From Astropecten irregularis (lineage: Eukaryota > Echinodermata > Asteroidea > Paxillosida > Astropectinidae), in contig OZ020250.1 in assembly GCA_963971285.1 (NCBI GenBank), positions 7,858,499 through 7,922,498 of the forward strand: a DNA stretch of 64,000 nucleotides, written 5' to 3'. The notes beneath the pieces were generated by a model, which saw only the letters and a program-made list of their open reading frames with translations, was not told the origin of the DNA and ran no database searches. Shown here one piece after another: positions 13,597 through 35,400 of this stretch (positions are counted from its first letter, which is position 1; every line of letters starts with the position of its first letter). Made by a program: the position numbers and the translations under genes.

Positions 13597-13602
13597 AATG
13601 GA
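13597..13602 (+). repeat. Left target-site duplication of the Polinton
   Basis: AATGGA directly before the left terminal repeat. The same hexamer follows the right end at 30301. Six bp is the usual Polinton duplication length. Confidence 0.8.
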
Positions 13603-13718
13603 GTAGGGAGAGAATCCCAATGCTTGCCCAATTGAGCTTTCGATGTTCAAGTCTGGGCTGGGCATAATAAAAAAAATCGGAAAAAATGAAAAAATTAAAT
13701 AATATTATTTTATATTAT
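13603..13718 (+). repeat. Polinton left terminal inverted repeat
   Basis: It begins GTAGGGAGAGAATCCCAATG and matches the reverse complement of 30184-30299 over 116 bp with about 4 mismatches. It ends just before the start of the polymerase gene and includes that gene's A/T start motif. Confidence 0.95.
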
Positions 13719-13730
13719 AATAAAAGGATA

Positions 13731-16700
13731 ATGACTGATCAAACAACGAATCAGCAAACGACGGAGCAGATGGCTAGACCAATTATTGCAAAGGGGTTTA
13801 GCCATTGGACAAAAGATAACTTAAAACATTTTGTTGAAGAAACCAAAATTCCAATAGAAGATCCAGAAACGGATTTTACTAAAAGTGAATATATTAATGC
13901 TATTACACGCAGACAACCAACCCCGCGTGGGTATAAAAGATGGGATTATTTAAAATTAAAAAATTATGTTCAAGATAATAATATTAGGTTAGATTTATCT
14001 AAAAAGCTCGATCACACTAGACGTGAATATATCAAAGCAATTAAAACGTTTACAAATCAATTTAAAAATTTAATAAAGAAAGATAATCAAGAACTTAGAG
14101 AATTAGCTAGAAAATATAACCTCAATGTTGTTCCAACGGGTCAAAGAGGACAAGTAATAAAACGAGATTATATCAAAACGATTAAAGAAAATTTATCATC
14201 GGAGGAAATTCGTGAAGCGACAAACTGGAGAGAAGTGAGATCTTTTCGTGGTAATCTTATAAATTTAGAAATAATTCTTCAAAGACAATATTCCGATCTA
14301 AATACATTTTTTAAACATCAGCATAAAAATATGATTAAAGAAGTAACAAAGATCTTTAGAAAAAAAGGTCAATTTAAGCTTGAATTTAGGATAAAACTCG
14401 AATATATAAAAGTTGAAGTTTTGGATGAAACATTACATGATTTTACTTTTCGAACCGAACAACATATTATTTTAAGGGAAGATGAAATAAATGAAAAGGT
14501 TAATAGCATTTTGTTCGAGCTAATAAATGTAGTGGAATCAAAAGATTTTGGACCCTCGGGTTTAACTTTAAATAAAATATTAGCGTTTTATATGAACTTT
14601 ATTAAATATACCAATGTTTCTGGTAGTTCATATATTGAACTTACGCCATTTATTAAACATAAAAAGGCTGTTGTTAGCGTACAAAATGACGACGATCAAT
14701 GCATTAGATGGGCTATCAGATCTGCGTTAGGGTTATACAAGGATGAAATCAAAGAAAAGAAAAAAAATAACCCGAAATACAGAATTCACGATGAAAGAGT
14801 CAGTACTTATAAGTTAAATGATGGGTTAGACTTTACCGGTATAGATTTTCCAACACCCTTAAAGCAGATTTCTAAAATAGAAAAACAAAATAATTTAAAT
14901 ATTAACGTGTTTGGGTTAGATTGTAATGATGAAAAAGAAGAATTTCCTTATCCATTACATATCTCTAAAGAAACAAACGACATTCACATAAATCTATTAT
15001 TATTTACTAGAGAGGTAGAAGAAGAAGGAGAAAAAATAATAAAAAGTCACTATGGTTGGATTAAGAATTTTTCGGCCCTATTCAGCAATGGTACATGTAA
15101 AGATGGGCATAAATTATATTTTTGTTACAGATGTCTATCGCATTTTTATACACCGCAAAAATTAAAAATTCACGATGAAATATGTCAAGGATTAACCGTT
15201 CATCCTTCAAGAGTCATCCTTCCAGAAGAAGATAAAAATATTTTAAAATTTAAAAACTTTAAAAATTTTCAAGATGCACCGTTTGTGATTTACGCGGATT
15301 TTGAATGTATTTTAGAAAAATACAATGTAGAAAAGATGAAAAAAACTCAAAAGTTGAGCGTTCATAAACCCAGCGGTTATTCTTATGTTGTGGTAAGATT
15401 TGATGGAAAACTAATGAAGCAAAAAACCTATAGAGGGTGTAACGCTAGCGAGCATTTAATTAATTCATTGTTAAAAGAACAACGTAAAATTAATCAAATA
15501 TTTAATAATCCTATACCGATTGAAGAGATCGACGAATCATTAATGATGAGTAACGAGTGTTGGATTTGTGAAAAGGAAATATATCAAACTAGCGTTTTAT
15601 ATTGTAATTGTGAGATACCTCGTGAACCCAAAACCAAATCCGAAAAAGAAGAAAACGCGGTCACAAACAGTAAAGGTTATACAGATTTTTTGTGTTTAGA
15701 ATGCGGTAAAAAAATTAATAAATTTAGAAAAGTTAGAGATCACTGCCACATCACGGGTAAATTTAGAGGAGTTGCACATGCACATTGTAACCTAAAACTT
15801 AAAATAACAAATCGAACACAAATACCGGTTATTTTTCACAATTTTAAAAATTACGACGGTCATTTGATCATGCAGGGGGTAAGCGCTTGCGTCGAAACGT
15901 TAAATAATAAAATAAAAAAACGTGAAACGTGTATAGAAAAAATCAAAACGCGTATAGAAAAAATCGAAGTGTATAAAGAAAAACTCGAAACGCAAGAAAT
16001 AAAACTCCGCAAAAAAATTAGATACATAAAAGAAAAACGTGAAATTTTTAACGAGTTTCGTCGAAATATAAGAAAAGGTGATAATTCAAAAATAAAAACG
16101 TTTGAAGAAAAATACGGAATTACATTCGATAAGAAACTTAATATAAAAATTAACCAAAAAGCAAACAAAAGCGAACGTTGTAATAGAGAAAAAATAAAAC
16201 TAATTAATCAAAAACTAAAAATAATCGATGAAAAAATAAATGTTAAAATCGATAAACTAAAAGAGGTTTTAAGTATATTAAATTATTATCAAAAGGAAAA
16301 AAACGTATTCGATAATATATTTTGTATTCCTCAAAACTCGGAAAAATACATAAGTATTAGTATAGGTCAACTCCGTTTTATAGATTCGTTAAATTTTATG
16401 AACTCTTCCTTAGAAAAATTAGTCGCTGCTTGTCCTAAAGACGCATTTCATTTATTTAGAAAACATTTTAAAGATTATAATACGGATGATGTTGATCTTT
16501 TATTAAAAAAGGGGTGTTATCCATACGAATATATGGATTCCTTTGATAGATTTAAAGAAACTCAATTACCACCCATTGAAAAGTTTTATAGTAAGATAAA
16601 ACTCAAAGGTATTACGCGAGAAGAATATACTCACGCGGAGTTGGTTTGGAAAACTTTCAACTGTAAAACTCTAGGTGATTATCACGACTTATACGTGACC

Positions 16701-18320
16701 ACGGATACGTTATTACTCGCCGATGTGTTTCAAAACTTTAGAACCACTTGTAAGAAAACCTATCGTTTAGATCCAGCGAAATATCTCACGGCACCGGGAT
16801 TGTCTTGGGATGCTTTGTTGCTGCATTCTAAAATAGAATTAGAACTTTTAACCGATATCGAACAATATTTATTTTTTGAAAAAGGTAAAAGAGGTGGTTA
16901 TTCTAGCGTGGGTAGTTGTAGGCATCACAAAGCCAACAATAAATATTTAAAAGATTACGATCCTGAAAAAGAATCTTCTTATTTACTTTATTTAGATGCG
17001 AACAATTTATACGGTTGGGCAATGAGTCAATCGTTACCCTACGCCGATTTTAAATGGTTAACCGATTACCAAGTCGCTAACTTTACGGTCGATCATATTT
17101 TAGGTTTAGCCGATGACAACGACTACGGATTTATGTTGGAAGTAGATCTAGACTATCCTAAAGAGCTTCACGACTTACACAACGACTTACCCTTAGCCCC
17201 AGAGAACATAACCGTATCGGCTGAATGGTTGAGCCCTTATCAAAAAGAATTGTTATCTAGCGGAGAAAAAGCTTCGCGAGATGACAGACTCATCGCTCAT
17301 TTAGGACCTCGTAAAAAATATGTCATTCATTATAAAACGTTAAAACTGTATTTACAACTAGGATTAAAACTCACACGCGTACATCGTGTTTTACGATTTA
17401 AGCAAAAACCGTGGATGCGGTCTTACATCGATAAAAATACACAACTCAGAAAAATAGCCAAATCAGATTTTGAAAAAGATTTTTTTAAACTCATGAACAA
17501 TTCCGTTTTTGGTAAAACAATGGAAAATGTTCGAAATAGAATAGATGGAAATATTATTATAGACGATGATAGCGATTTATCGATAAAAAAAATATTAAAA
17601 CTAGCATCCAAATCTAATTATAAAACATCAACTAAATTTACAGATTCTAATATAGGTTTCTTTGAAAGGTACAAAGAAAAAACGTATTTAAATAAACCCA
17701 TCTATTGTGGAGTGAGTATATTAGATTTAAGCAAATCTTTTATGTACGACTTTTATTACAATCACTTGAAGAAAAAATATAACGATAACATAAATCTCAT
17801 GTATACCGATACCGATAGTTTATTATTGATCGTTAAAACCGACGATGTTTACGAGGATATTAAACGAGACTCAGAACTTTACGATCTATCTAATTATTCA
17901 CCCACTCACCCTTTATTTGACCCTAAAAACAAAAAAGTAATTGGAAAAATGAAAGATGAATACGGTGGCCAAGTAGTAAAACAAGCCATTTGTTTAAGAT
18001 CAAAAATGTATGTGATCTTAATACAAGATGATAAAGAGGTTAAAAAAATTAAAGGTATAACAAAAACCGTGACTGAAAAAAATATTAACTTTGAAAATTT
18101 TTATAATTGTTTACAAAATAAAAAATCTCAAGAACATCAAATGAATATAATTCAATCTAACAAACATCAAATTTATACGCAAGTGAAAACCAAAACTTCA
18201 TTGAGTCCTTATGATGGAAAAAGATATATTTTATCCGATGGAATCAATACTTTAGCATTTGGCAATAAAAAAATTAAATATCAAGATTCTGGCAATTCGG
18301 TGTCATCTGGAACGATTTGA
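13731..18320 (+). CDS. Polinton protein-primed DNA polymerase B
   Basis: This replicates the element by protein-primed synthesis. The open frame runs from 13686. I prefer the ATG at 13731 (MTDQTTNQQ) because the A/T start motif lies just before it and the earlier ATG lies within the terminal repeat, giving 1529 residues. Positions below count from 13686. Three SAP-like helical segments lie in the first ~180 residues. The usual Polinton N-terminal region follows, including HYGWIKNFSALFS and a zinc-type CYRC..H..C (~460-505). Exonuclease motifs are YADFEC (~535), FHNFKNYDGHLI (~716) and YHDLYVTTDTLLLAD (~998). An HNH-like zinc segment (CWIC..HCHITGKFRG..HCN) sits at 624-700. Polymerase motifs are YLDANNLYGW (~1101), NNSVFGK (~1269) and YTDTDSL (~1372). 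A Lys/Glu-rich coiled coil of ~135 residues (~738-871) sits between exo II and exo III. The 3' end overlaps the converging integrase gene. Confidence 0.96.
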   Translation: MTDQTTNQQTTEQMARPIIAKGFSHWTKDNLKHFVEETKIPIEDPETDFTKSEYINAITRRQPTPRGYKRWDYLKLKNYVQDNNIRLDLSKKLDHTRREYIKAIKTFTNQFKNLIKKDNQELRELARKYNLNVVPTGQRGQVIKRDYIKTIKENLSSEEIREATNWREVRSFRGNLINLEIILQRQYSDLNTFFKHQHKNMIKEVTKIFRKKGQFKLEFRIKLEYIKVEVLDETLHDFTFRTEQHIILREDEINEKVNSILFELINVVESKDFGPSGLTLNKILAFYMNFIKYTNVSGSSYIELTPFIKHKKAVVSVQNDDDQCIRWAIRSALGLYKDEIKEKKKNNPKYRIHDERVSTYKLNDGLDFTGIDFPTPLKQISKIEKQNNLNINVFGLDCNDEKEEFPYPLHISKETNDIHINLLLFTREVEEEGEKIIKSHYGWIKNFSALFSNGTCKDGHKLYFCYRCLSHFYTPQKLKIHDEICQGLTVHPSRVILPEEDKNILKFKNFKNFQDAPFVIYADFECILEKYNVEKMKKTQKLSVHKPSGYSYVVVRFDGKLMKQKTYRGCNASEHLINSLLKEQRKINQIFNNPIPIEEIDESLMMSNECWICEKEIYQTSVLYCNCEIPREPKTKSEKEENAVTNSKGYTDFLCLECGKKINKFRKVRDHCHITGKFRGVAHAHCNLKLKITNRTQIPVIFHNFKNYDGHLIMQGVSACVETLNNKIKKRETCIEKIKTRIEKIEVYKEKLETQEIKLRKKIRYIKEKREIFNEFRRNIRKGDNSKIKTFEEKYGITFDKKLNIKINQKANKSERCNREKIKLINQKLKIIDEKINVKIDKLKEVLSILNYYQKEKNVFDNIFCIPQNSEKYISISIGQLRFIDSLNFMNSSLEKLVAACPKDAFHLFRKHFKDYNTDDVDLLLKKGCYPYEYMDSFDRFKETQLPPIEKFYSKIKLKGITREEYTHAELVWKTFNCKTLGDYHDLYVTTDTLLLADVFQNFRTTCKKTYRLDPAKYLTAPGLSWDALLLHSKIELELLTDIEQYLFFEKGKRGGYSSVGSCRHHKANNKYLKDYDPEKESSYLLYLDANNLYGWAMSQSLPYADFKWLTDYQVANFTVDHILGLADDNDYGFMLEVDLDYPKELHDLHNDLPLAPENITVSAEWLSPYQKELLSSGEKASRDDRLIAHLGPRKKYVIHYKTLKLYLQLGLKLTRVHRVLRFKQKPWMRSYIDKNTQLRKIAKSDFEKDFFKLMNNSVFGKTMENVRNRIDGNIIIDDDSDLSIKKILKLASKSNYKTSTKFTDSNIGFFERYKEKTYLNKPIYCGVSILDLSKSFMYDFYYNHLKKKYNDNINLMYTDTDSLLLIVKTDDVYEDIKRDSELYDLSNYSPTHPLFDPKNKKVIGKMKDEYGGQVVKQAICLRSKMYVILIQDDKEVKKIKGITKTVTEKNINFENFYNCLQNKKSQEHQMNIIQSNKHQIYTQVKTKTSLSPYDGKRYILSDGINTLAFGNKKIKYQDSGNSVSSGTI

Positions 18321-19324
18321 AGTTCTTCTTTCACAAACGATCGTTTGGGTCCGTCTTTTAAGTAATAAAGCGTAGGACCTGTAGTAACTTTTTTACCACT
18401 CATGATTTTAAATTGACTCGTTCTTTTTTCAATTTGATACATGTTAACGCTCCATATGGGATCGGTAGCCCTCCTCACCGTACCTCCTTCTTGTTCCCCT
18501 GGTTGTTATAAATAACGAACTAAAACATTAGTCGGAAGATCACTAACGTTTGTTTTTTGTGGTGATGAGGGTAATTGTTTAACCCGTTTTAACTTGATCG
18601 CTTGCGTAGGAGTGATTTCTTTATCTTTTGAATCTCGAATCAATCGTGTTGTTTCTTCATTGAGGGATTTTATAACCTGGGGCAACCTCACCACCCATTC
18701 GACGTTTCTCGCCTGCGGATCAAGCATTTCTTGCACGTATTGATGACCGAATAATCTTTCGGCTAAGGTTCGGTTAAATCTTTCAACCACTCCTTGCGAT
18801 CGATGCACACCCGGCACACCTACGCTGATCTCTACGCCATGAGACTGAAACAACTTTTTAAAATCTCCTTTAAATTCTGTTCCAGCATCGATTTGCGCTA
18901 ATTTAGGCCACGTTAAAGGCGAACGCTTGTAAATTTTAATAATCGCGTCTTTCACTTGACCGGCAACTTTAGAAGTTATGGGTTCAGCCTCTTTATACCG
19001 ACTCGCCACGTCTATGACCGTCAACGCGTATTTAAACGTTTTTTGTTTAACTAGATCCCAGGGTAAGTATAATATATCTAACTGATGTACGTAATTTGGT
19101 TCTAACCAATCACTCGACATTGCCGTCGGCCTGGGTACATATGAGGGAGGTGGTAAATAAATTTGCCAAACGGCTTGTTTTTTTAACCAAGATCTAACTT
19201 TTTGTTTATCAACCCCCGTTTTTTTATGCAAATGCGTGACAGCACCCTCACCTTTCCAATAACCTTTAGGACTGTAAAACAAACCTGAAAGCTGTTCTCT
19301 TTGTTTTTTATTTAACTCACTCAT
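18281..19324 (-). pseudogene. Polinton integrase (looks broken, about one break)
   Basis: A retrovirus-type DDE integrase that would insert the element. The core has D (LTVIDVASRYKE), D (QIDAGTEF) and E (GVVERFNRTL) in the expected order, preceded by an H2C2-like zinc/helical region. The C-terminal segment has the RRATDPIWS and K-rich chromodomain-like region typical of Polinton integrases. The likely start is the ATG at 19324 (MSELNKKQREQL), because a gtataaaataaaa motif abuts it. An upstream ATG in frame at 19375 lies inside the neighbouring gene. The gene converges on, and slightly overlaps, the polymerase gene. Confidence 0.9.
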
Positions 19325-19331
19325 TTTTATT

Positions 19332-19754
19332 TTATACATATCTATAAATGAAGAATCCCACTGCGGCTGTACCACCTAATACCCACACGAGTTCTCTAAT
19401 TTGTTGATCATCACTCGGAGTATAAAAGTCACTAAGTTTTGGTTTAGGTGGTAATTCTAAATCGTAATTTTCACCCGTTATTTCGCTGTACACTCTAAGC
19501 GCTTCGTTTACGTTACTAAACGTTTTTTCTGATAATTTTTGTTGTACCATACGTTTATTCAAAAAATCGAGATATTTAACGCGTTGTTGTTCCCAATCTT
19601 CTTTGGCTCGCGCTAATTTTTCTAATGCTAAGTCGTGTCTTTTTCGTTCTTTGTCAATTTGTTGTTTTGATAAACTGCTAAATAAAAAGTTACTACCGGT
19701 AAACGCTAACGCATTTACTACTGCCCCGCCAACCATCATTGCTATTCCTGCCAT
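19332..19754 (-). CDS. Polinton small membrane protein with coiled coil (140 aa)
   Basis: It has an N-terminal hydrophobic segment (residues 1-28, MAGIAMMVGGAVVNALAFTG), a charged coiled coil (30-75, KERKRHDLALEKLARAKEDW) and a second membrane segment at the C-terminus (123-139, VWVLGGTAAVGFFIYRYV). The LSDFYTPSDDQ motif before the last helix is one I recall from similar proteins in cnidarian Polintons. The function is unknown and it is probably a virion or morphogenesis membrane protein. It starts 57 nt from the divergent capsid gene and lies directly upstream of the integrase, whose start motif sits inside the end of this gene. Confidence 0.8.
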   Translation of the reverse strand: MAGIAMMVGGAVVNALAFTGSNFLFSSLSKQQIDKERKRHDLALEKLARAKEDWEQQRVKYLDFLNKRMVQQKLSEKTFSNVNEALRVYSEITGENYDLELPPKPKLSDFYTPSDDQQIRELVWVLGGTAAVGFFIYRYV

Positions 19755-19811: not shown

Positions 19812-21074
19812 ATGAATCATTACGGTAAAAAACTAAACCCAATGAGGCGTCTTAAAATCCCTAAAGCCATTAAAGGCGAACGAAGAGAAGTGTCAATCAC
19901 TCATAATCCAAGCACGATTGCGGCTGGTCAAAAACTCATCGTTAAGTTTCCGCAATTAGGACCCGACGATGTTATCGTACCCGGTACTTCTAAACTCGCT
20001 TTTAAACTCGAGTTAGAGGGAGGGACAGATGGTAATCGAACGGTGGTTAACAACTTATGTCGTAACTTAATACGCGAAATCAATGTTAGGCTTCAAGGTA
20101 ACACAATCGTGAGTTATCGCGATGCGGATGTCTTTCACAATTTTAAAGATAACTGGCTGCACCCCTACATTACACGAAATATGGCTTATGTAGGCCTTGA
20201 AAAAGAAAACGTCACAAAATTAAGATTAGGCGCGGCAGATGCTGATGCTGAAAATAATAGCGGAAAAGATAAAGCTATCGCTGACGCGTTTGGTAATCGA
20301 TATTGTATTCCTTTAGATATTGAGCTTTTAACGGCACATCATCCTTTTTATCCTAGCAGTCTAAAGCAGCCCCTAACGTATGAATTAACATTTAACGATC
20401 ACGATAAAGTCGTTAATAGCGCGGATACAAGTGCCCAATATTCAATTTCAGATTTAACGCTTGAATACGAAGTTGTCACTAACCGAGATTTGACACAAGA
20501 GCTAAAAAACAAACGAATGAAATACTATCTTTTTGATCACGTACATAATTTAGAAACAAGATCGATCAACAAATCAGATACCTTATGGAACGTTATGATT
20601 AATCAACCGATTAAAAGTCTCAAAGGTGTTTTAATCTTATTTAGAGATCCAACGGTAAAAAACCCTCAAAGATTTTACAACCCTCACATTAGCAAAACCA
20701 GCATTACGGTTGAAGGAAAACCCAATCAACTTTTTTCGCAAGGTATGTTTGAGTATCAGCACTGGCAAGAAGTTAATAAATTTTTTGGTGATAGCGATAC
20801 CGAAAATGGCCAATCGATTGTAAAAGATTTAAATTTAGTGGGTCTAGAAATGGCTGACTACTATAAAGATAAATACGGCCTGTGGCTAGATTTTCGCTCA
20901 ACTGATGATAATAGTGCTCACGGAAGTGGAAGACGTTTAAACGACGGAGGAGGAATTCAGATTCAGATGACTCGAGAGGCTGAAACAGCGGGAGATTTAA
21001 CGATGTTTGTATTTTTAGTCATGGATGCGCAATTAACCATTGAGGATGGAAATTTTAAGAATTTAGTTTTTTAA
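19812..21074 (+). CDS. Polinton major capsid protein (double jelly-roll)
   Basis: A 420-residue candidate for the main capsid subunit. The N-terminal half has the strand-rich pattern seen in Polinton/adintovirus capsids (GERREVSITHNPSTIAAGQK, then FPQLGPDDVIVPGTSKLAFK, then VNNLCRNLIREINVRLQG). The middle FYPSSLKQPLTYELTFND and the late segment PIKSLKGVLILFRDP match what I recall of capsid-like proteins in cnidarian and echinoderm Polintons. It is followed 16 nt later by the packaging ATPase, the usual pairing of capsid and ATPase genes. The fold assignment is by pattern recognition and gene order. A structure prediction should show two tandem jelly rolls. Confidence 0.8.
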   Translation: MNHYGKKLNPMRRLKIPKAIKGERREVSITHNPSTIAAGQKLIVKFPQLGPDDVIVPGTSKLAFKLELEGGTDGNRTVVNNLCRNLIREINVRLQGNTIVSYRDADVFHNFKDNWLHPYITRNMAYVGLEKENVTKLRLGAADADAENNSGKDKAIADAFGNRYCIPLDIELLTAHHPFYPSSLKQPLTYELTFNDHDKVVNSADTSAQYSISDLTLEYEVVTNRDLTQELKNKRMKYYLFDHVHNLETRSINKSDTLWNVMINQPIKSLKGVLILFRDPTVKNPQRFYNPHISKTSITVEGKPNQLFSQGMFEYQHWQEVNKFFGDSDTENGQSIVKDLNLVGLEMADYYKDKYGLWLDFRSTDDNSAHGSGRRLNDGGGIQIQMTREAETAGDLTMFVFLVMDAQLTIEDGNFKNLVF

Positions 21075-21090
21075 AAGCTTATTAAAATAA

Positions 21091-21696
21091 ATGGAATCTT
21101 GTCATTGTGCTTTAATTGTAGGAAAAACAAACTCGGGAAAGACTAAATGGATTTTAGATTTATTGGAAACCGAATATCGTGATAAATTTGAATCGATCGT
21201 GGTCATTTGCCCGACCTTATTTAAAAATAAAACTTATTTATCGAGGCTTTGGATATCAATGGATGAAAATGTATATTTGTGTGATTTAGACTTTGAAAAA
21301 ATAACTTTAAATGAAGCCCTAGATTTGTATCAAAATATTTTAGATGGAATAAAAACATTATTTATCATAGATGATTGTTCGAGTCAGCAGGAAATAAAAT
21401 ATCGAAAAAAAACATGTGCGTTGAGCAAAATCGCTTTTTCTGGGAGGCATTATAACCATAGCTGTTGGTTATTAACACAAAAGTATAATTCGGTTTTAAA
21501 AGACTATCGTGAGAATACAAGTTGGGTTGCGATGTTTTATACAAAAGATAAAACGAGTTTTGATATTGCATTAGATGAAAATGATGTTGTGTGTGATCAA
21601 AAAAGAGACGTAATTAAAAAACATTTGTGCGATAAAAAATATAGTAAATTGGTTATTAACACAGAACCTCCAGTTTCATATCAAGTTTTTGATTAA
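21091..21696 (+). CDS. Polinton packaging ATPase (FtsK/HerA-like, A32 family)
   Basis: This motor is expected to pump the element's DNA into capsids. Walker A is GKTNSGKT (residues 11-18) and Walker B is LFIIDDC (about 90-96). The arginine/sensor region SGRHYNHSCWLLTQKY (about 117-132) is the standard A32-like motif. Length (201 aa) fits the family. The ATG at 21091 is preceded by cttattaaaataa. It directly follows the capsid gene on the same strand. Confidence 0.93.
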   Translation: MESCHCALIVGKTNSGKTKWILDLLETEYRDKFESIVVICPTLFKNKTYLSRLWISMDENVYLCDLDFEKITLNEALDLYQNILDGIKTLFIIDDCSSQQEIKYRKKTCALSKIAFSGRHYNHSCWLLTQKYNSVLKDYRENTSWVAMFYTKDKTSFDIALDENDVVCDQKRDVIKKHLCDKKYSKLVINTEPPVSYQVFD

Positions 21697-22831: not shown

Positions 22832-22856
22832 TTTTTTAAATGTTTATATATTAAAA

Positions 22857-22967: not shown

Positions 22968-22996
22968 TTTAAATTTTAAAAACTTATATAGTAAGA

Positions 22997-23251: not shown

Positions 23252-23277
23252 AATGTGTATATAATAAATAATTAAAG

Positions 23278-24615
23278 ATGGATGATTTTGATTATCAAGA
23301 GAATGATCCCCTGTTAAATGAAACAGAAGATAGAGACGATCAACAATTTAACAACCCCGTTTATGATAATACCGAACTCGATTCTGAAGAAAATCAAGCT
23401 CGATTAAATAATTTACGAGGTGGTGGTACACAAGAACAACAAGAAGAATTAAGTGCTCTTCGTAATGGTGAAAATGTTGATTACTCGTTTCAACTTCAAA
23501 ATCAGTACATTGATAATTTTTATGCTAGCATAAGAAGTGAAGGTTATATTAAACGAGAAAACTTTAGATTTGAAAAGGATGGAATATATTACAAAAAAGA
23601 TGAAATTAAAATATTATTAACGTTGGATAATAATCCTAAAAAATTTGCTTCTGTGAATACAATATATTCTAGAACAAAAGGTAAAGGAATTGAACATAGA
23701 TCTCTTTTTATGCGAGAAGATTTAAGAATTGTTGGTTTTAAAACATCAAAACGCAGCAAAGAAGCAAGCACAGCGCTTCAACAAGCAAGTACATCTTTAA
23801 CTAATATTCAAAGTGAAAACATACCCTTACAAGATTTACCACAAGCAGCTGATCAAACGAGTAATGTTATAGAAGAACTCGAACAAGAAACCAATATTGA
23901 TGAACAAGGCGAATTAAATATCAGAGAGCTACGCGGTTTAGACAAAACATTACAATCGCTTAAAGGAAATTTATTATTGGAACAATCAAAGCTAACTGAG
24001 TTAAATGAGACAAAAGAAAGAGTTAAAAAAGAATTAAACGAAGCAAAAAAAGCAGAAGATGAAGAACAAATAAGATCACTCACAGAAGAGTTAGAAAATG
24101 TAAACATTGAAATACGAGAAAGGTCTAATTATATCATTAGAGAATCAGATAAAATAAAATATCAAATCAATCGCATCAAAGAAACAATCAATATAATGTT
24201 AGACAGTGATGTAACGCTTAGAGAAAAAATTAAGTTTTTATTTAAAGAGCAAGGTGTCACGATCGCGAGTATTTTAGCAGCAATTTCTATGGCCATCAGC
24301 ACACTGGTAAGCTCGGTGGTAGCAGCCGTTAGAGGTGTCGGTATCCCAACCCCAGAACCACCCGCGCCTAAACCTGAGCCACCATCAGGAGGTGGCATCA
24401 AAGAGTGGGTACACAAGCACTTGAAAAACTTAGCAAACGCTTTGAAAAAATTAGGGTTAGCCGCATTAGGTGCGCTGCCGGGGGTCATTGGTAGCGTCAT
24501 AAGTTGGTTACTAAATGTTTTAAGTAAATCAGTTGGCTGGCTAGCAGAACACGTGTGGGCTTTATTTATAGGTGCAGGTGCTTTAATTATTGCTTATATT
24601 AAAAATAATTGGTAG
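23278..24615 (+). CDS. Polinton membrane-active virion protein candidate (445 aa)
   Basis: Order: an acidic N-terminus (1-70) with NPVYDNTELD, a folded segment (~75-155), a long coiled coil (~215-310, KLTELNETKERVKKELNEAK), a hydrophobic helix (TIASILAAISMAISTLVSSV, ~328-347), a Pro-rich hinge (PTPEPPAPKPEPP), an amphipathic helix (GGGIKEWVHKHLKNLANALK) and a hydrophobic C-terminus (ALPGVIGSVISWLLNVLSKS, ending in a TM helix). The hinge-and-hydrophobic C-terminal block is characteristic of a conserved cnidarian Polinton protein. The biochemistry is unknown; membrane penetration or anchoring is my inference. The start motif gtatataataaataattaaag precedes the ATG. Confidence 0.8.
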   Translation: MDDFDYQENDPLLNETEDRDDQQFNNPVYDNTELDSEENQARLNNLRGGGTQEQQEELSALRNGENVDYSFQLQNQYIDNFYASIRSEGYIKRENFRFEKDGIYYKKDEIKILLTLDNNPKKFASVNTIYSRTKGKGIEHRSLFMREDLRIVGFKTSKRSKEASTALQQASTSLTNIQSENIPLQDLPQAADQTSNVIEELEQETNIDEQGELNIRELRGLDKTLQSLKGNLLLEQSKLTELNETKERVKKELNEAKKAEDEEQIRSLTEELENVNIEIRERSNYIIRESDKIKYQINRIKETINIMLDSDVTLREKIKFLFKEQGVTIASILAAISMAISTLVSSVVAAVRGVGIPTPEPPAPKPEPPSGGGIKEWVHKHLKNLANALKKLGLAALGALPGVIGSVISWLLNVLSKSVGWLAEHVWALFIGAGALIIAYIKNNW

Positions 24616-24636
24616 TTTTGTTTTTTAACAAATAAT

Positions 24637-24685
24637 AAAAAAAAATACCCCCAAGCTCCTTTTGAGCTTTGGGGGTATTTTTTTT
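24637..24685. terminator. Hairpin between converging genes
   Basis: AAAATACCCCCAAGCTC and GAGCTTTGGGGGTATTTT form a near-perfect ~20-bp stem with a CTTTT loop and A/T tracts on both sides. It lies midway between the stops of the converging genes ending at 24615 and 24707. It could act as a two-way 3'-end signal, by position. Confidence 0.65.
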
Positions 24686-24706
24686 GGTTTAAATATTTAT
24701 ATTTTT

Positions 24707-25966
24707 CTAAGTCAAAATTTTGTAGACTAAAACTCCTATCGCAATGATTGCAACTGTTCCTATCGTTAAAGATAATTTTTCATCTTGATGAATGTCTAAA
24801 GATGCTTTAGGATTTGACTCTGAGGTTTTAGGTATAGGTGATAAACGTGGTGTAGGTTCTTCTGTTGGTTCTTGAGTGGGTTTGGGTTCAAGGGTTGGCT
24901 GAGGATCAAAGTCATCAACTTGTATCGGAGCGTTTAAGGTTGGTTGAAATCCCGGTTTAGCGGTTAAAGGTGCAATTTGCAAGTTATTATTGTAACCATC
25001 GTGTATGCCTACCCTTAAATCCATATCTGACGGAATGAGGTATAGCCCGGGTCTTACGACAAAGTTGAGTGGAGTTTTAGCATACTGCAGTGAATCTTGA
25101 AATTGATTGATACTTTGCTCTAAATCTGGTTCGCTATTAATGAGACTTTCTACGATGGTAACAAACTGACGCTGTGCATCTAAACCGGTTCCCGGGGTTA
25201 ATACACTGGTTTTTGTTTGTGCTTGTGCACCTAAAAGCGCGTACACGTAAGCCCTAATCGATTCGTTAATTTTTGTAATTCCAACATCGGTAAAAGAACT
25301 CGTCTTTGAAATAAAGTCTGTCCAAGCACCTAAAACATTATTGGATTGTTCAAGGTAAGTGACCGTATAGGTACTCGCGTGACCCGATCCTTTTGGTGGA
25401 TCCATTAAACCAAAGCCCATAAAAGTTGAGCCTGCATACGTACCGTAGTTTACACCCAAGTCGTGGGGGTCATAGTTTTTCCCCGGCACTGGAACCGACC
25501 CCGAATTGTAGTAAAAAGCAGTACCCAAGCCGTTTGAGGTCGTATCTCTCGTTTGTTTAAAAGACTTGCTTCGATCGATTCCAAATACACGGCACGTGTC
25601 CGTAAAAGCTCTCGTATCATAACGGTTATTTAACGCGTTAAATACATCATCACCAGGTATAGGTGCTACCAAATTATAAAATATTTTTCGTATAGTATAA
25701 TACACGTGAAAATGAAACAGCGATGAAATATATTGGTTTTTATTGTGGAGGAGGTCAAGACCTACTCCACACGCGGTCGTGGCACAATAAATCGCAAAGT
25801 TGAATTGGTTTTGATAAAAGGACAAAGGGTTAGTTTGCCATCGTTCGATTGCTTCGTCCGTTTTAACGCGTGGTAATTTATACGCGGTTGACATATCTTT
25901 AAATTGTACAAAAAAAGTATGATTTTTATTGACGATAATAGCTAAAGCGCCTAAAGAGTTTCCCAT
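24707..25966 (-). CDS. Conserved Polinton protein with stalk and C-terminal TM (419 aa)
   Basis: The N-terminal domain contains QNQFNFAIYCATTACGVGLD (about 52-71), then FHFHVYYTIRKIFYNLVAPI and NNRYDTRAFTDTCRVFGIDR. I recall this signature (FNFA.(W/Y)CAT..CG(V/I)) from many cnidarian Polinton proteins of unknown role. Residues ~335-385 form a Pro/Glu/Thr-rich stalk (PTLEPKPTQEPTEEPTPRLS), followed by a single C-terminal membrane helix (~400-418, IGTVAIIAIGVLVYKILT). This layout fits a membrane-anchored surface or virion protein. The ATG follows cttatattataa and is divergent from the next gene. Confidence 0.78.
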   Translation of the reverse strand: MGNSLGALAIIVNKNHTFFVQFKDMSTAYKLPRVKTDEAIERWQTNPLSFYQNQFNFAIYCATTACGVGLDLLHNKNQYISSLFHFHVYYTIRKIFYNLVAPIPGDDVFNALNNRYDTRAFTDTCRVFGIDRSKSFKQTRDTTSNGLGTAFYYNSGSVPVPGKNYDPHDLGVNYGTYAGSTFMGFGLMDPPKGSGHASTYTVTYLEQSNNVLGAWTDFISKTSSFTDVGITKINESIRAYVYALLGAQAQTKTSVLTPGTGLDAQRQFVTIVESLINSEPDLEQSINQFQDSLQYAKTPLNFVVRPGLYLIPSDMDLRVGIHDGYNNNLQIAPLTAKPGFQPTLNAPIQVDDFDPQPTLEPKPTQEPTEEPTPRLSPIPKTSESNPKASLDIHQDEKLSLTIGTVAIIAIGVLVYKILT

Positions 25967-26005
25967 TTATAATATAAGTCTTTTTATAATAAAAGTAGAG
26001 TAAGA
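25967..26005. promoter_or_regulatory. Compact 39-bp divergent start region
   Basis: Only 39 bp separates two divergent ATGs. It contains cttatattataa (minus strand, abutting ATG) and tttataataaaag (plus strand, ~12 nt before ATG). Confidence 0.6.
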
Positions 26006-27196
26006 ATGAGCGGAATACAACACACATTTTATTTGACAAAAAACGAACAAACGTTTAAATTGCAAGAGGTGATTGATAATTTAGATGGCTCAAAACAAAT
26101 TCGCGTTAAAAATCTCGTGTTTACGGTAGGCTATTTTAACATAACTAAATCCAGTGAGATTACTTGGGAAAAGGAGATAGATGGGCAACCCGCTTATACT
26201 AACGGTAGGTCTAGAGACAATAGACAAACTGATAAAAGCTCACAACTACAGACAAAGCCATTAGAACTGACCCCTGAGATAATGAATCAATTTCGTTTAT
26301 CGATGACAACTGAAGAAATTCAACAAAGCAGAAAAGAAGTCATAGCACGCATTATTACACAGATGTTTGACGGATATGATACTGAAATTCTTAACGAAGT
26401 GGAAATAAAAATACAAGAAGAAATACAGGTCCTCAGACAACGAAAACAAACCCTAGAATTAGCCAGGGATAGACTTGATGATGAATTACAAAATTATGTT
26501 AACTATGTAATACATTTATTAAATAAAAGAATAGACTATATCATAGAAGGCCAAGTATTAGCCACAAATTTACTTCGATATGGATACAACAATGACAATC
26601 AAGAAAAAACAGAAAATATGCGTTTACCACAAATTAAAAACAGCCTCGTTGTTTTAGGACATAAAGAGCCAATCGTAAATGCACTACATCCGGTGAGTGA
26701 GGTTACGGCTTTGCCTGAGGGCAAATCAGGAAGCATCATTATTTTACCTGGATTTTATGGTATCGATTGGTTCGAGTCATTGATAAACGCGATACCGGGT
26801 GTGAGCTTTAAAGTCTATAGAGAAAGTAAAACGGTGACCTTAAGGGTCACTGATATAAACCTTAATCTACGTTTAAATCGAGAAGTTTCTAATTTGCTCA
26901 ATTTACCCAAAGGAAGGTTAATCCCAAATGTCATTTATAAGGGTGATTACGATATTAATCCATTTAACATTACGTTTATTCATTGCGAGCAGTTAAACAC
27001 GAGTGATAATTTTTACAACGGGTTTCCTTCAAATATGTTATCATTTTATCACACAAGCCAAACAAACCAAACTCACGTTGGGAAAACATTAAAAAACGGT
27101 AAAATTAATAAACTTGCCTTTTCAATTAAAAACGAGGAAGGAAAAATCATCAATAACAAAGGCGCGGGGATTTTAATCGAATGTGAAATAATTTAA
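26006..27196 (+). CDS. Polinton minor capsid / penton candidate (396 aa)
   Basis: The N-terminal ~55 residues are strand-rich (HTFYLTKNEQTFKLQEVIDN). A coiled coil follows (~120-185, EVEIKIQEEIQVLRQRKQTL). The C-terminal ~170 residues have the pattern of a single jelly roll: ITFIHCEQLNTSDNFYNGFP, SNMLSFYHTS, then KINKLAFSIKNEEGKIINNK ending GAGILIECEI. This 'interface strand ... D/N-E-G-x-x-(I/V)' ending resembles minor capsid (penton-like) proteins of Polintons and adintoviruses. The role is inferred from shape and neighbours, because no enzyme motif is visible. It shares a compact divergent start region with the TM-anchored protein upstream. Confidence 0.65.
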   Translation: MSGIQHTFYLTKNEQTFKLQEVIDNLDGSKQIRVKNLVFTVGYFNITKSSEITWEKEIDGQPAYTNGRSRDNRQTDKSSQLQTKPLELTPEIMNQFRLSMTTEEIQQSRKEVIARIITQMFDGYDTEILNEVEIKIQEEIQVLRQRKQTLELARDRLDDELQNYVNYVIHLLNKRIDYIIEGQVLATNLLRYGYNNDNQEKTENMRLPQIKNSLVVLGHKEPIVNALHPVSEVTALPEGKSGSIIILPGFYGIDWFESLINAIPGVSFKVYRESKTVTLRVTDINLNLRLNREVSNLLNLPKGRLIPNVIYKGDYDINPFNITFIHCEQLNTSDNFYNGFPSNMLSFYHTSQTNQTHVGKTLKNGKINKLAFSIKNEEGKIINNKGAGILIECEII

Positions 27197-27217
27197 AAAC
27201 GCTTATATATTAAAAAT

Positions 27218-27889
27218 ATGGCAACCGTAAATGTAAATGAAATAAAACCTTTATATCCTGATCTAAACTTAAACAGCGGTGATGATATTAAAGACGAAAC
27301 TAAAATTTATCGACTTCAAAAAATTGAAGATATTAAATCTCTAATCTGTAAAGAAAGAAACTCGCGCGAGGTTTCTTTTAAAAAGTTAAAAAGGTGGATC
27401 TCTGCGATTCAATATGTAGAGCACGGGGTTGAAGTACTGGGGGTCACTGCAGCCGCGATAGGGATCCCCGCATTAATGGGTGTTATTAGTGCCCCAATTG
27501 GCTTAGTCTTAGAGGGGACTAGCATAGGTGCCTTTGGATTTTACGCGGTACTTAAATACGCAAGCAAAAAATTAACGGTAAAGAGTAAAAAACACGATCA
27601 GATTAAAATTTTAGCAGATGCAAAGTTAAACACGATAGATGAATACGTGTCAAAAGCCATCGAAGATGGTGATATTTCTCACGAAGAATTTATATTAATT
27701 ACGTCAGAACTTAAAAAATTTAACGACTTGAAAGAAAAAATAAGATTAAAAACTTCTACAAAGTTAGAAGAAGCTAAACATTTAAATAAAGTTGAATTTG
27801 AACGACAAGTTGAAGAAAAGGCTAAAGCGATGGCGAGTGATTTACTCGCCAAAGAAAAAAAAGAGCTTATGAAAAAACTTGGAAATTAA
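27218..27889 (+). CDS. Polinton two-helix membrane protein with helical tail (223 aa)
   Basis: The N-terminus is a short acidic region followed by a helix (residues 25-70, RLQKIEDIKSLICKERNSRE). A hydrophobic hairpin follows at ~74-112 (VEVLGVTAAAIGIPALMGVI then APIGLVLEGTSIGAFGFYAV), and a long charged helix (~120-223) includes AKLNTIDEYVSKAIEDGDIS then HEEFILITSEL. The 'AKLNt..vsKAi.Dg.Is..EF' pattern recurs in cnidarian Polinton proteins I recall. Function unknown. The start motif cttatatattaaaaat abuts the ATG. It converges with the TFIIB-like gene. Confidence 0.75.
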   Translation: MATVNVNEIKPLYPDLNLNSGDDIKDETKIYRLQKIEDIKSLICKERNSREVSFKKLKRWISAIQYVEHGVEVLGVTAAAIGIPALMGVISAPIGLVLEGTSIGAFGFYAVLKYASKKLTVKSKKHDQIKILADAKLNTIDEYVSKAIEDGDISHEEFILITSELKKFNDLKEKIRLKTSTKLEEAKHLNKVEFERQVEEKAKAMASDLLAKEKKELMKKLGN

Positions 27890-27967
27890 GTTTAAGTTTG
27901 ACAAAGTCGTTTAAAAACGGGGAGAGTAAACCTCCGAGTTATAAAGAAAGTCAAGCGAGAGTTAGCC

Positions 27968-28399
27968 CTACGGCTCCTCCTCTTTAAAAGTTTCGTTGTA
28001 TCTTTTTAACGCTTGATTAAAATATTTTAATTCTACTTGAAATAACTTTTGTACTGTTTCTTGGGTTACGTTTAAAATGTTTTTTAGATAACATACTGCC
28101 ATTAACGACCTGAGTGGATGACCCCTAGATATTTTTCCCTTTAATATTTGTTTTAATTTAAACTCGACGAGTTTAAGGTCACACATTTGGTATTGAATGT
28201 TTAATTTATCAAAGACTTTTTTTACTATAGAAGCCTTTGTTTTTTTATAGAAAAATCTCTGATTATACTTTCCATTAATATTTTCCGTAGAATAATCCAT
28301 GAGACTATAACCTATAATTAATCCACACTTGTTGCAATAATACTCATCTTTAGCCTCATCGATAATGATGTTATGGTTACACATATCTATCTCATCCAT
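27968..28399 (-). CDS. TFIIB-like transcription factor (zinc ribbon plus one cyclin-like repeat, 143 aa)
   Basis: The N-terminus MCNHNIIIDEAKDEYYCNKC followed by GLIIGYSLMDYSTE has the layout of the TFIIB zinc ribbon (C7, H9, C22, C25, then GLIIG), compared with CPNH..[20 protein letters not shown] in human TFIIB. A B-finger-like linker follows (~40-60). The C-terminal ~85 residues form a helical repeat with RGHPLRSLMAVCYLKNILNV then TQETVQKLFQVELKYFNQAL. This resembles a cyclin-like TFIIB repeat (GRSPxxIAAAxxYIAxRxxG..RTxxEIAxVxxVxxxxIxxxY). Cellular TFIIB is ~315 residues with two repeats, so this is about half size with one. The ATG follows ttaaatataa. No TFIIB-like gene is among the standard Polinton genes I know. 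The assignment is by eye; an unrelated zinc-ribbon late factor (VLTF3-type) is the main alternative. Confidence 0.7.
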   Translation of the reverse strand: MDEIDMCNHNIIIDEAKDEYYCNKCGLIIGYSLMDYSTENINGKYNQRFFYKKTKASIVKKVFDKLNIQYQMCDLKLVEFKLKQILKGKISRGHPLRSLMAVCYLKNILNVTQETVQKLFQVELKYFNQALKRYNETFKEEEP

Positions 28400-28545
28400 T
28401 TATATTTAAAAAAAATTAATTAATTATTTTTTTTTTTTTTTTTTACTGAATCATTTTTTTTTTCACCCAATACTTTACTCAGAATGCGTGGGCGTTTTTA
28501 TAAAGAGTGTAAAGGGGCCGGGGTCTATGCCTTAAACTCATCAAA

Positions 28546-28572
28546 GAGGGCCAACAACACTGTTGACCCCCT
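28546..28572. terminator. Short hairpin (GGGCCAACA / TGTTGACCC)
   Basis: A short inverted repeat with a C-run and T-run after it, in the non-coding strip right of the TFIIB-like gene. It has no gene end next to it on the plus strand, so its role is open. Confidence 0.35.
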
Positions 28573-28576
28573 TTTT

Positions 28577-28868
28577 TGGGGTACCGGGTTCAAAGTTTAA
28601 AGGTTTTTTTTTTCATGTTTTTTTATGTCAGGATATTGTTTTTTATGTTTCTTATTAAATATCACCCCAAATATTCAACGAGAAACATTTTCTTTCTTTT
28701 TCTATTTTTTTTCATGTTTTTTTATGTCAGGATATTGTTTTTTATGTTTCTTATTAAATACCCACATCAAATATTCAACGAGAAACATTTTTTCTTTTTC
28801 TATTTTTTATTCATATTTTTTGTTATGTTAATTTTAATTTTACAGACCGTGCGTCGAACCCGGTACCC
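28577..28868. repeat. Inverted GGGGTACCGGGTTC arms enclosing two direct repeats
   Basis: GGGGTACCGGGTTC at 28577-28591 recurs inverted at about 28855-28868. Between them, two ~80-bp direct repeats start at 28614 and 28713 (catgtttttttatgtcagga, then gttttttatgtttcttatta and attcaacgagaaacattt). T-rich, no credible protein. Confidence 0.7.
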
Positions 28869-28916
28869 CATGGTTGCAAACCGCCGAGCTTATCCACTGA
28901 GCTATCCTCCCAGCCC
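28846..28916 (-). other. tRNA-like sequence with A and B boxes
   Basis: Read on the minus strand, GGGAGGATAGCTCAGTGGAT and, about 45 nt on, CCGGGTTCGACGC give good Pol III A- and B-box matches with tRNA spacing. An anticodon-loop-like TTTGCAA lies between them. The acceptor stem does not close and the anticodon stem is weak, so it is probably a degenerate or tRNA-mimic sequence, or a SINE head carried in the element. Confidence 0.4.
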
Positions 28917-28923
28917 CGACTGA

Positions 28924-29310
28924 AAATGGTTTTTTAATTTGATATATATTATACTCGAAATGGTGCAATAACAACGATGACGACACAAAGGACGAGTCTA
29001 TTTTTTGAGGGGTGTTTGACTGTGATTGTGACGGTTTACACAGGTTCAGTCATGTGTTATATTTCAATAACAAACCCGAGCGCTTTTAGGAATTTAACCT
29101 TTGTGTCAGCGGATGACTAAGCGTTTTACACTACGTTCAGTCATGAATGAAATTTGAATAACAAAAACCCTGTTTACGCTGGGGACAACCACGCGTGACA
29201 TTAAATGGCTGTTTTTTTCAAGCGAGTGTTGTGTATACACTTAAGGTAAATAACCTTTAGTGCATTGTCAAGTGCATATGAGTAGTGTACATGCATACGA
29301 CGTAAAAAAA
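28924..29310. other. Polinton non-coding strip with a spaced repeat
   Basis: No gene seen. 'gttcagtcatgtgttatatt' then 'tcaataacaaaccc' near 29044 recurs as 'gttcagtcatgaatgaaatt' then 'tgaataacaaaaaccc' near 29135. This is a direct repeat spaced by about 90 bp. It could be a regulatory or origin-like region, but nothing shows this directly. Confidence 0.4.
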
Positions 29311-29338
29311 AAGCCACATCCTAATTTGGATGTGGCTT
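29311..29338. terminator. Hairpin downstream of the 254-aa gene
   Basis: AAGCCACATCC and GGATGTGGCTT form an 11-bp perfect stem with a TAATTT loop. It lies ~70 bp past the stop of the minus-strand gene ending at 29409, on the side where its transcript would end. Confidence 0.55.
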
Positions 29339-29408
29339 AATTTAGTGTGTAAATAAAAATGATAATTTTTTTGTTATTTTTTTTGGCTTTCTTTTTTATA
29401 TTCTAGAT

Positions 29409-30173
29409 TTAGTCATCAATATCTTCAATATCAAACATGACATTAGTGGGGATTTGTATAGTTTCATATTGCCTAATAAAAGCTTGTTCTAATTTAAATC
29501 TGATACTTGCACCAAATCCACTATTTCCATGAGAACCAAAAAATATATCATTACAGATGAGAACAGGTGTAACTTTACATGATTTATTCATATATTCATC
29601 GATGTTATCAATCTTTTTCTTTTTAGAATCAAACAATTTTGTATATTGTTTTAATTGATTTCCTTTTCCATATGATTTAAGTTTAATATACATTTTTTTG
29701 TTTTTATCATCATAAATTGGTTTAACACTTTGTTTTCCCATGTTTATATACATATTTTTGGTTATTTTTGGTATATTTTTATCAGATTCAATATATTTAG
29801 TTACTGTACATCTCATTTTATCAAAGTATTTAACAATTTCATCACAATCATTTTGTAAATTATATACAATTTGATAGCCAGTTGTGTTGTCTGGATTTTT
29901 TTCTTCACCAAAAGTATTAATTGTATTTATTCCAAAACAAAAATTTGTTGGTAACATAAAAATTAAATTACATTCTTTATCATCATGTTTATAAGTAATT
30001 TTTGATTTAGCACATTCTACTACTTCTTGTGAAGTTTTAATCGCTGGATTTATTATTAAATTTTTCTCATTAAACAACCCATAATGATTATATTCACTTT
30101 TATCTGCGTTTTTATATAGATCATGTTTTTCAGTTACAAAGTATGTATGTTTTATTGTTTTGTTTTGTTCCAT
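29409..30173 (-). CDS. Polinton protein of unknown function (254 aa)
   Basis: I do not recognise this family with confidence. The sequence alternates basic and strand-like segments (NLIFMLPTNFCFGINTINTF, then KKMYIKLKSYGKGNQLKQYT), has KLFDSKKKKIDNIDEY, and ends with VTPVLICNDIFFGSHGNSGF then GASIRFKLEQAFIRQYE and an acidic tail. Size and the 'KLKxxxKG..TKLFD' then 'P(V)LIxxxI' order loosely recall single-stranded-DNA-binding-like proteins of large DNA viruses (DUF2738/DUF5871 type). This is only a resemblance. It is the last gene before the right terminal repeat and points inward. Its start motif (attattataaataag) lies just inside the element from the repeat. Codon use is more AT-biased than in the capsid genes. 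Confidence 0.7.
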   Translation of the reverse strand: MEQNKTIKHTYFVTEKHDLYKNADKSEYNHYGLFNEKNLIINPAIKTSQEVVECAKSKITYKHDDKECNLIFMLPTNFCFGINTINTFGEEKNPDNTTGYQIVYNLQNDCDEIVKYFDKMRCTVTKYIESDKNIPKITKNMYINMGKQSVKPIYDDKNKKMYIKLKSYGKGNQLKQYTKLFDSKKKKIDNIDEYMNKSCKVTPVLICNDIFFGSHGNSGFGASIRFKLEQAFIRQYETIQIPTNVMFDIEDIDD

Positions 30174-30183
30174 CTTATTTATA

Positions 30184-30299
30184 ATAATATAAAATAATAT
30201 TATTTAATTTTCTCATTTTTTCCGATTTTTTTTATTATGTCCAGTCCAGACTTGAACATCAAAAGCTCAATTGGGCAAGCATTGGGATTCTCTCCCTAC
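30184..30299 (-). repeat. Polinton right terminal inverted repeat
   Basis: The reverse complement matches 13603-13718 with about 4 mismatches in 116. It ends in GGGATTCTCTCCCTAC, followed by one T and the duplicated AATGGA. Confidence 0.95.
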
Positions 30300-30300
30300 T

Positions 30301-30306
30301 AATGGA
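30301..30306 (+). repeat. Right target-site duplication of the Polinton
   Basis: AATGGA, identical to 13597-13602. One extra T (30300) separates it from the exact terminal repeat, so the precise edge is uncertain by one base. Confidence 0.8.
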
Positions 30307-32483: not shown

Positions 32484-35400
32484 GTAAGTAATTTCACATT
32501 TCTCGTCACTGATCTTTCGTAAAAATTCTAATTTGGCTTTCCTGTCGATGTATGCCCGGCCCACTGCAACTATTTCGTGAATTTTTCTTATCAAGTTTAT
32601 GAGAGTTTGTTGCTAAGTAGAATTTAAGGTAACTGCCGGGTGTTGATGGAAGTCGGATCCCGGATCTGGTCCGACCTTTCTGGAACCTCTCCCAAATTTG
32701 CGCTCAATTGCAGAATACCCCACCACTCTCTCCTTCATTGAAGCTGTGTGTAGCCTAACGTTACATTGTACTAATGAGTAATGTTGTTCTTGACCGCTCA
32801 TAATGTTTGTGCACAGGGCTTTAGTTTAAGTTTTGAGAGGTGGAGTATTCTGCAATTACTCCTATGCTATTGCGATGAAAACTGACCTTGTTTTGAAGAA
32901 ATTGTTTAATAGGCTACCCATACGAATCGGTATGCATGAAAAGCCCACGGACGAATTGTGTGACCAATACGTATCCCCACTGCAGGCCATTATCCGGAAA
33001 GGTCGGATCAGATCTGGGATCCGACTTTCAACGATCGCCCTCATTGCCGCCTGACTGGTTTTCAAATTTGTACTTTTATTAATTAATGTCTTTTCAATGG
33101 GCTGCTAATTGGGAGTTTTGGACCCCTTTTCTTTCAGTTTCACCAACCGACTAGGCTAAGTTTAAAAATAAATGTATGTCATACGTCGTATGTCATGTGT
33201 TATTGTGTTTCCATTGCAGCCCTACGTAGAAGTTGAAGGATACAATAAGTCAATAGGTTATCCATCATATCTCAAGTTACGTTTGATCGTAGGGCTTCGT
33301 AAAATCGACCCCAGGTCTTTTAACCATTTATCAAAGTGACAGAAAAGCTGATGAAACTAAACATTTCATGCCTCATGTAAATTTTTTGTGTTAAATTACT
33401 TTGTATTGTTCCTTGGTCATTTGCTCTGACCAGTGCAGTTTCCAATTTGCTTTTGAATAGAACTGTTCCTTTCCAAGGGATATAATATAGTCTTTTTCCC
33501 AAAAGAACAAAATCCTTATCCTGCCTTGCCTTTTTGACAATTCTTGTTGGCAATTCTGACGACCATTGGGCTCGATTTGGGCCTGTCTGAAAATTTTGAA
33601 CTTGAATGACTTCATCAAACCCTAACCCACCTCAATCCTCCAAAATCCTTCTGGTAGTTTTGGAGGATTACGGAGGATTCAGGATAATGAGGATATAATG
33701 TCATTTTCAAGTGAGAACCACTTTAGGAGTGGCAAGGATTCAGGATAAACACATTTTTTGAGGTAGGGCCACTAAAGGATTCTGAAGGATTCAGGATTCA
33801 GGTACCTCTCATTTTGAGTATAAGTGAGATCACTGGAGGACTGTGGAGGATTCAGGATGAACGTAGTTTTTAAAGTGTGACCATTGGAGGATTGTGGAGG
33901 ATTCAGGATGGTACATAGTAAAATGCCCCCAGGGGGTTTTGCATGCTTATTTCTTCCCAGTATCTCACTTGGACACTGACACATTTCTCTCTCTCTATTC
34001 CCGGCAGATGGTGAACCCTTAGGTAAATTCATCAAGAATTATGACACGCTGAATTATGATTCCAGTGAATTGCATCTCAAGCATGAGAGAGCCAGACGAT
34101 CCACTCAGGAGGAGAGCAACGTTCATCTCGATTTTACTGCCCATGGAAGGTAAGCTCAGCTCAGGCTGAATGAGGACCTAAGAAGATACAATATTGGTTG
34201 CAATTTGAAGCCTTTCCTAATTCAGAGATACTGTGCAACTTTTCAGATTTTCAAATGTTTTGAATTGTACTATTTATTTTGAAGTTTCCTTTGATGATAT
34301 TATCATAATTATTCACACTTTATCTAACGGCTTCATGCCTTGGATCGTGCGGTATGTCTAGTCTACACTCATAATGACTATCTACTTAGTCATGGGTTCG
34401 AATCCCACCTGAACAGCGCACAATTTTCTCATGTGCACTCAACAAGCACTGTGAATGCAGTGCTCATCCACGTCGGTGAAGGGCAAGCCCAATTTGCATA
34501 TTATCTATCTCCTGACCAAATCTATACATGTGTACATGTATAACACAGACATTCATTTTCAGATTTGTTTGTCATTGGCCAGTTGCTTTGCATTTCTGCT
34601 TATTACAGTGTATTAGGGGGCCTACACACTGTATAACACTGCATTCTTAGGCAAGTTCAACTCGAGGCCTCCTACAAGTACCGGTATCGTTCTGATAAGC
34701 CCGGCATTTTAAACCCCTGTTTGGTTTCACACTTGGTAGTTGTGGACTAGTTGCGATGATCGTAACCCTAGGTCTAACATGGGGACTGGGACCTTAGGGT
34801 TACGAGAAAACGTATTCAAAATGTTTGGGAATGACATTTTGGCCAACTCCTGAAGTACGTTTCTACTTAGTTTTCCACTTTCCAAAATCCAAACACAAAA
34901 TCTGACTACATGGATCTGATTGGTACTAATCAATGAGTCATATAAAACCACTTTGAATATCGAAAGATCATTTAGTTCAGAAAAAATGACCCAAAACTTA
35001 CCGAAGGTGTCGAGATTCCCTCCGTTTGCCGTCAGTCGGCCATTTTGAATAGTGCGCAGTGTGCCATCTCGACCAAATCACGTCATGCGAAATGCCGTTT
35101 TGGCTGTTCCACCTTTCAAACTCAAACTAACAGCCCTATGGAGGGTGTTCCCATAATAACACGTGCGCTGTGATACCGTGTACACGCATATCGTATACAG
35201 TATGGAGGAGGTTTTTTTAAGTCCGCATTGTTTGCCCATGTCAAGCTGCCGCTGACAATTCAAATATTTCATCATGAAGTGAAGGAAATTGCTAAGATTA
35301 TCAAATGATTTCCTTTATGAATGGTCCCATAAACAGACAATGTTAGCAAGCCACAAACTTGGTGCCGACCCAATTCATGATCAAACAGAAATAAAAAGGT

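Follow-up and report, generated by a model that had tools for sequence, protein, structure and literature searches.

The transcription factor TFIIB, which directs RNA polymerase to the starts of genes, and its archaeal counterpart TFB are built of a zinc ribbon (Pfam family PF08271) and two cyclin repeats (PF00382). Polintons, or Mavericks, are elements with terminal inverted repeats (TIRs), a target duplication, an integrase and a packaging ATPase. They are regarded as standing near the origin of many DNA viruses of eukaryotes, and we know of no TFIIB-like gene in any standard Polinton gene list. TFIIB homologues are carried by giant viruses (Nucleocytoviricota) and, in archaea, by mobile elements such as haloarchaeal plasmids and Halorubrum tailed viruses; the accessible part of one paper also reports a homologue in thaumarchaeal integrative-conjugative elements (PMC6563490). 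Here we describe a TFIIB-like gene, referred to as mini-TFIIB, in a 16.7-kb Polinton-type element of the sea star Astropecten irregularis. The element occupies positions 13602-30300 of a stretch of 64,000 nucleotides (contig OZ020250.1 of assembly GCA_963971285.1, positions 7,858,499 to 7,922,498), which we call the window and whose numbering is used below.

Mini-TFIIB resembles TFIIB and TFB in the order of its parts, a ribbon followed by a cyclin repeat, in a co-linear profile alignment over residues 4-65, and in the predicted fold of repeat 1. It differs from them in its length of only 143 amino acids (aa), in a first zinc knuckle of the form C-x-H, and in a cyclin part that is unrecognisable by sequence. 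The protein ends after one repeat and does not reach the two of TFIIB; therefore we term it TFIIB-like and not TFIIB. Virus-borne TFIIB-like proteins of giant viruses are its best matches in a structure search of BFVD. However, the targets named TFIIB among the top 30 rows of that search are 223-428 aa long, and mini-TFIIB resides in a small element in which no RNA polymerase family was found among the 14 open reading frames (ORFs) scanned. The archaeal mobile elements carry full-length homologues in archaea, whereas mini-TFIIB is a reduced one in a eukaryote.

The element is Polinton-type, as follows from its TIRs, integrase, ATPase and size, and it departs from the standard Polinton gene lists known to us in having the TFIIB-like gene. 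The original prediction held that such a gene may be undescribed. In agreement with this, a search of the open-access literature, with supplements, preprints and subscription journals outside it, gave no TFIIB-like Polinton gene. In the accessible parts of open-access papers naming both TFIIB and Polintons, TFIIB features as a giant-virus gene or marker, or as one of thaumarchaeal integrative elements, and never as one of a Polinton.

A TFIIB-like gene that is open in more than 100 copies is a concrete handle, i.e., a factor together with candidate promoters, on the switching of Polinton virion genes, of which we know no account. It also bears on the origin of the transcription factors of giant viruses. 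If functional, a one-repeat TFIIB would reveal how small a part of TFIIB suffices to start transcription and would be, to our knowledge, the smallest TFIIB-type initiation factor.

Zinc ribbon and predicted cyclin repeat

The N-terminal domain of mini-TFIIB is a TFIIB-type zinc ribbon by sequence. The ORF runs from an ATG at 28399 to a stop codon ending at 27968, and the plus strand across the locus is crowded with stops. C7, H9, C22, C25 and then GLIIG (residues 26-30) are present in the product with the order and spacing originally described. The best Pfam matches are the TFIIB ribbon PF08271 (E 3.9e-5; 23.5 bits, under the curated cut-off of 29) and the A2L ribbon PF08792 (E 5.4e-4; 20 bits, under the curated cut-off of 22.9), and not an unrelated zinc-ribbon family. 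A hidden Markov model (HMM) of the ribbon built from 69 archaeal TFBs gave the N-terminus 24.4 bits, a score reached by none of 5000 shuffles (the highest had 12.5 bits). Two viral TFIIB-like ORFs, which came from a viral contig collection scanned with an archaeal TFB alignment and served only as yardsticks, scored 28.0 and 25.4 bits. When residues 1-54 were the hhalign query, residues 4-39 paired with the TFB ribbon (E 2.7e-6, probability 88.6); with the full protein as query the co-linear alignment extended to residue 65 (E 1.2e-5).

Zinc binding by the ribbon is likely but non-canonical, because the first knuckle is C-x-H in the lineage of the window and C-x2-C in 4 of 9 relatives. These nine, out of 13, are the relatives in which the knuckle is covered; in one of them (P0001) it reads C-x-H-C. 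With mini-TFIIB as query, PDB searches found no match by single sequence and only chance-level ones by profile (best E 0.073, HcgC), and PHROGs yielded nothing useful.

Residues 52-141 are predicted to adopt one cyclin fold. The model has helices at 58-65, 72-86, 94-107, 113-119 and 124-137, which form a five-helix cyclin-like bundle, with moderate confidence (mean pLDDT 70.1). Among known structures it matches TFIIB and BRF chains best, at repeat 1 in the case of TFIIB, and cyclins (cyclin A) are tied with them. Two models of differing depth both rank TFIIB or BRF top, with the domains in TFIIB order. The TFB repeat-1 HMM gave 2.6 bits (p 0.028, 5000 shuffles). The cyclin-like repeat behind the ribbon is a prediction from the modelled fold, which matches TFIIB, and not from significant sequence similarity.

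Copies, relatives and selection

The gene is not confined to the window. A search with the protein across the 476 Mb of the host genome, in 168 contigs, returned 126 match rows, including at least 105 full-length open frames of 141-143 residues; 15 of these are identical to the query, counting the copy in the window. The gene is therefore far from absent in related copies of the element. We read 100 copies, with nine other full-length ones outside the sample: 96 are stop-free over 432 nt and make up 46 haplotypes at the nucleotide level, and the remaining four are broken. The ATG is lost in two of the 96.

Ten other copies were sampled with two pieces each, at distances of about 8 kb and about 11 kb, and all ten lie in elements with the presumed capsid gene. 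This gene and the polymerase ORF were each at the expected distance in nine; the remaining copy is offset by about 3.7 kb, but its pieces still contain capsid and ATPase sequence. Among 60 right ends, 58 have the neighbouring 254-aa gene and a TIR match, and two have neither. The whole 123-nt TIR is present in 20 of these 58, most of it in six, and only its inner 44 nt in 32. Since the latter continue into another, mutually similar sequence, there are at least two terminal subfamilies. The 26 right ends with a visible outer TIR end have 26 different flanks and thus represent separate insertions. The elements also look mosaic, because in two copies (C15:18951199 and C14:20962687) the polymerase piece is only 79% identical to that of the window and the presumed capsid piece 97.5-97.7% identical.

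The gene was probably under selection while the elements were active, because its common variants are poor in amino-acid changes. Variants found in at least five copies comprise 12 nonsynonymous and 14 synonymous changes (expected nonsynonymous share 0.73, p 0.003), a p-value that is optimistic, as the threshold was set after viewing the variant list and the variants are linked and non-independent. The variants in fewer than five copies (34 nonsynonymous, nine synonymous) are as expected without selection, and the two classes differ (Fisher p 0.008). All variants together, 46 nonsynonymous to 23 synonymous, are near neutral (47 to 17 expected). Mean pairwise pN/pS across haplotypes is 0.28, and in 60 copies diversity at third codon positions is 2.6 times that at position 2 and 2.9 times that at position 1. 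C7, H9, C22 and C25 are invariant in the 96 copies, with frequent silent changes in codons 7, 9 and 22.

A first protein search found a single relative, 71% identical over its full length. Profile searches raised the number to at least 13 (P0001-P0013), which are 44-72% identical to the protein of the window, retain the linker and the C-terminal domain, and sit on public contigs of 503-1825 bases. The family may exceed 13, as the third search scored only the 7993 candidates sharing most words. Three relatives (P0002, P0009 and P0013) have about 80 additional residues ahead of the ribbon. In the viral contig collection, mini-TFIIB, the presumed capsid protein, the polymerase ORF, the integrase and the ATPase each had no relative.

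Candidate promoters and possible function

An exact TATATA-type motif, CTTATATANTAA, lies upstream of four of the 14 genes, 2-19 nt from the ATG. The pattern was first spotted by eye, but the statistic considers every pattern of that shape and takes the best common one: this reached four genes in none of 1000 dinucleotide shuffles and in three of 1000 AT-matched control sets. The motif has 10 matches against 2.3 expected, an expectation that is too kind, because it uses the composition of the whole window (G+C 0.385) and not of the element (0.327). For an RNA that has a leader, an ordinary TATA box sits about 30 nt upstream of the transcript start. The distance from CTTATATANTAA to the ATG is too short for this, and the motif is more like viral late promoters, which it resembles as they are described in the accessible part of PMC11788076.

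On balance we lean, with little room to spare, towards a genuine Polinton gene for a reduced TFIIB, which would most likely replace or assist host TFIIB at promoters of the element. The ribbon would dock on the polymerase, the conserved basic linker would sit at the position of the TFIIB reader and linker, and a single cyclin repeat would take the place of two. The protein could thereby recruit the RNA polymerase II of the host to AT-rich promoters that immediately precede the start codons of structural genes, perhaps serving a late class of genes. Here we infer the partners of mini-TFIIB, the promoters served and the direction of the effect, activating versus blocking.

Several results weigh against a reduced TFIIB with its own promoters. 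A Pfam search at E 1 did not detect the cyclin-like repeat, and hhalign of the C-terminus alone gave nothing significant (E 0.39). In the ribbon, hhalign aligns C7 with the second cysteine of the first knuckle. A de novo expectation-maximization motif search did not rise above shuffles: at width 12 it was outscored by 6 of 12 shuffled sets, and at width 14 by 3 of 12.

We propose more tentatively, and with less than even confidence, that this Polinton family may have its own promoter-recognition system, in which a one-repeat TFIIB and a late-type TATATA promoter redirect host RNA polymerase II with no viral polymerase. If true, this would connect Polintons with the strategy of transcription used by giant viruses, whose TFIIB and TBP are proposed to redirect the host polymerase likewise, according to the accessible part of PMC12085832.

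The same anatomy would also suit a blocker. Such a TFIIB mimic would fill the docking site of TFIIB on RNA polymerase II with its ribbon and one repeat, leave initiation incomplete and lower the reading of host genes while the element replicates. One repeat rather than two, and a ribbon that is the best-kept part, agree with this; however, a plug would hardly need the linker and C-terminal domain that relatives conserve at the identities given above, and a motif common to several genes of the element calls for a recogniser. We consider a mimic unlikely. Somewhat less probable still is a generic DNA-binding protein, not related to TFIIB, whose zinc ribbon and helical DNA-binding domain regulate or package the element. 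Taken alone, the C-terminal domain matches no sequence significantly, and helical bundles often yield middling fold scores, but the ribbon is specifically TFIIB-like against the shuffles, and two models put TFIIB or BRF first. Kinship with VLTF3 of giant viruses (poxvirus A2L) in place of TFIIB is highly improbable: the second-ranked A2L ribbon and the late-type motif speak for it, but the TFIIB ribbon outscores the A2L ribbon, Pfam has no VLTF3 match at E 1, the first VLTF3 in BFVD stands at rank 47 (E 1.3, probability 0.07), and VLTF3 is reported, in the accessible part of PMC11253617, to be undetectable outside Nucleocytoviricota.

Features of the element and of the rest of the window

The Polinton setting that the original prediction assumed is borne out by the TIRs of 123 nt (96% complementarity), the retroviral-type (rve) integrase and the A32-type ATPase (Table 1). 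Both flanks carry AATGG as a candidate target duplication, which reaches 6 bp only with the first A of the TIR included.

Table 1. Coordinates of the features of the element in the window
Feature	Position	Strand	Remarks
Left target duplication copy	13597..13601		AATGG (AATGGA counting first A of TIR)
Left TIR	13602..13724	plus	starts AGTAGGG
1544-aa ORF, putative family-B DNA polymerase	13686..18320	plus	endonuclease VII-like insert
rve integrase	18506..19375	minus	PF00665, E 1.1e-8
CTTATATANTAA	19781..19792	plus	19 nt ahead of presumed capsid gene ATG
Presumed major capsid protein	19812..21074	plus	assigned by position
A32-type packaging ATPase	21091..21696	plus	PF04665, E 2.8e-10
CTTATATANTAA	22403..22414	plus	9 nt ahead of 135-aa ORF ATG
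CTTATATANTAA	22983..22994	plus	2 nt ahead of 84-aa ORF ATG
CTTATATANTAA with one mismatch	25967..25978	minus	immediately ahead of 419-aa ORF ATG
CTTATATANTAA	27202..27213	plus	4 nt ahead of 223-aa ORF ATG
mini-TFIIB gene, 143 aa	27968..28399	minus	zinc ribbon 4-39; conserved basic linker ~38-57; predicted cyclin repeat 52-141
254-aa ORF adjoining mini-TFIIB gene	29409..30173	minus	no function assigned
Right TIR	30178..30300	minus
Right target duplication copy	30301..30306		AATGGA

We take the 1544-aa ORF to be a putative family-B polymerase from motifs in its sequence; it had no polymerase family match in Pfam and no match in PDB. Its residues 652-704 form an endonuclease VII-like stretch (PF02945, E 2.3e-4, under the cut-off). 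The capsid ORF, presumably the major capsid protein by position, had no family match. The candidates for capsid proteins (double jelly-roll and penton) had no match in Pfam, and no cysteine protease was found.

Between the mini-TFIIB and 254-aa genes, at 28606-28811, a 56-nt sequence occurs twice in direct orientation, with 99 nt between the copies, and there is a further 49-nt repeat. Variation at the right end is greatest in the 100 nt directly before the mini-TFIIB gene.

Outside the element, large inverted repeats (275 nt, 99%; 142 nt, 94%) occur at 34746-36845, and a 605-aa ORF on the plus strand at 45401-47218 has no assigned identity. Exon-like ORFs at 50381-52537 seem to resemble an ADAM10-type metalloprotease, as would fit an animal host. 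A tRNA gene (Rfam RF00005) lies on the minus strand at 54585-54658.
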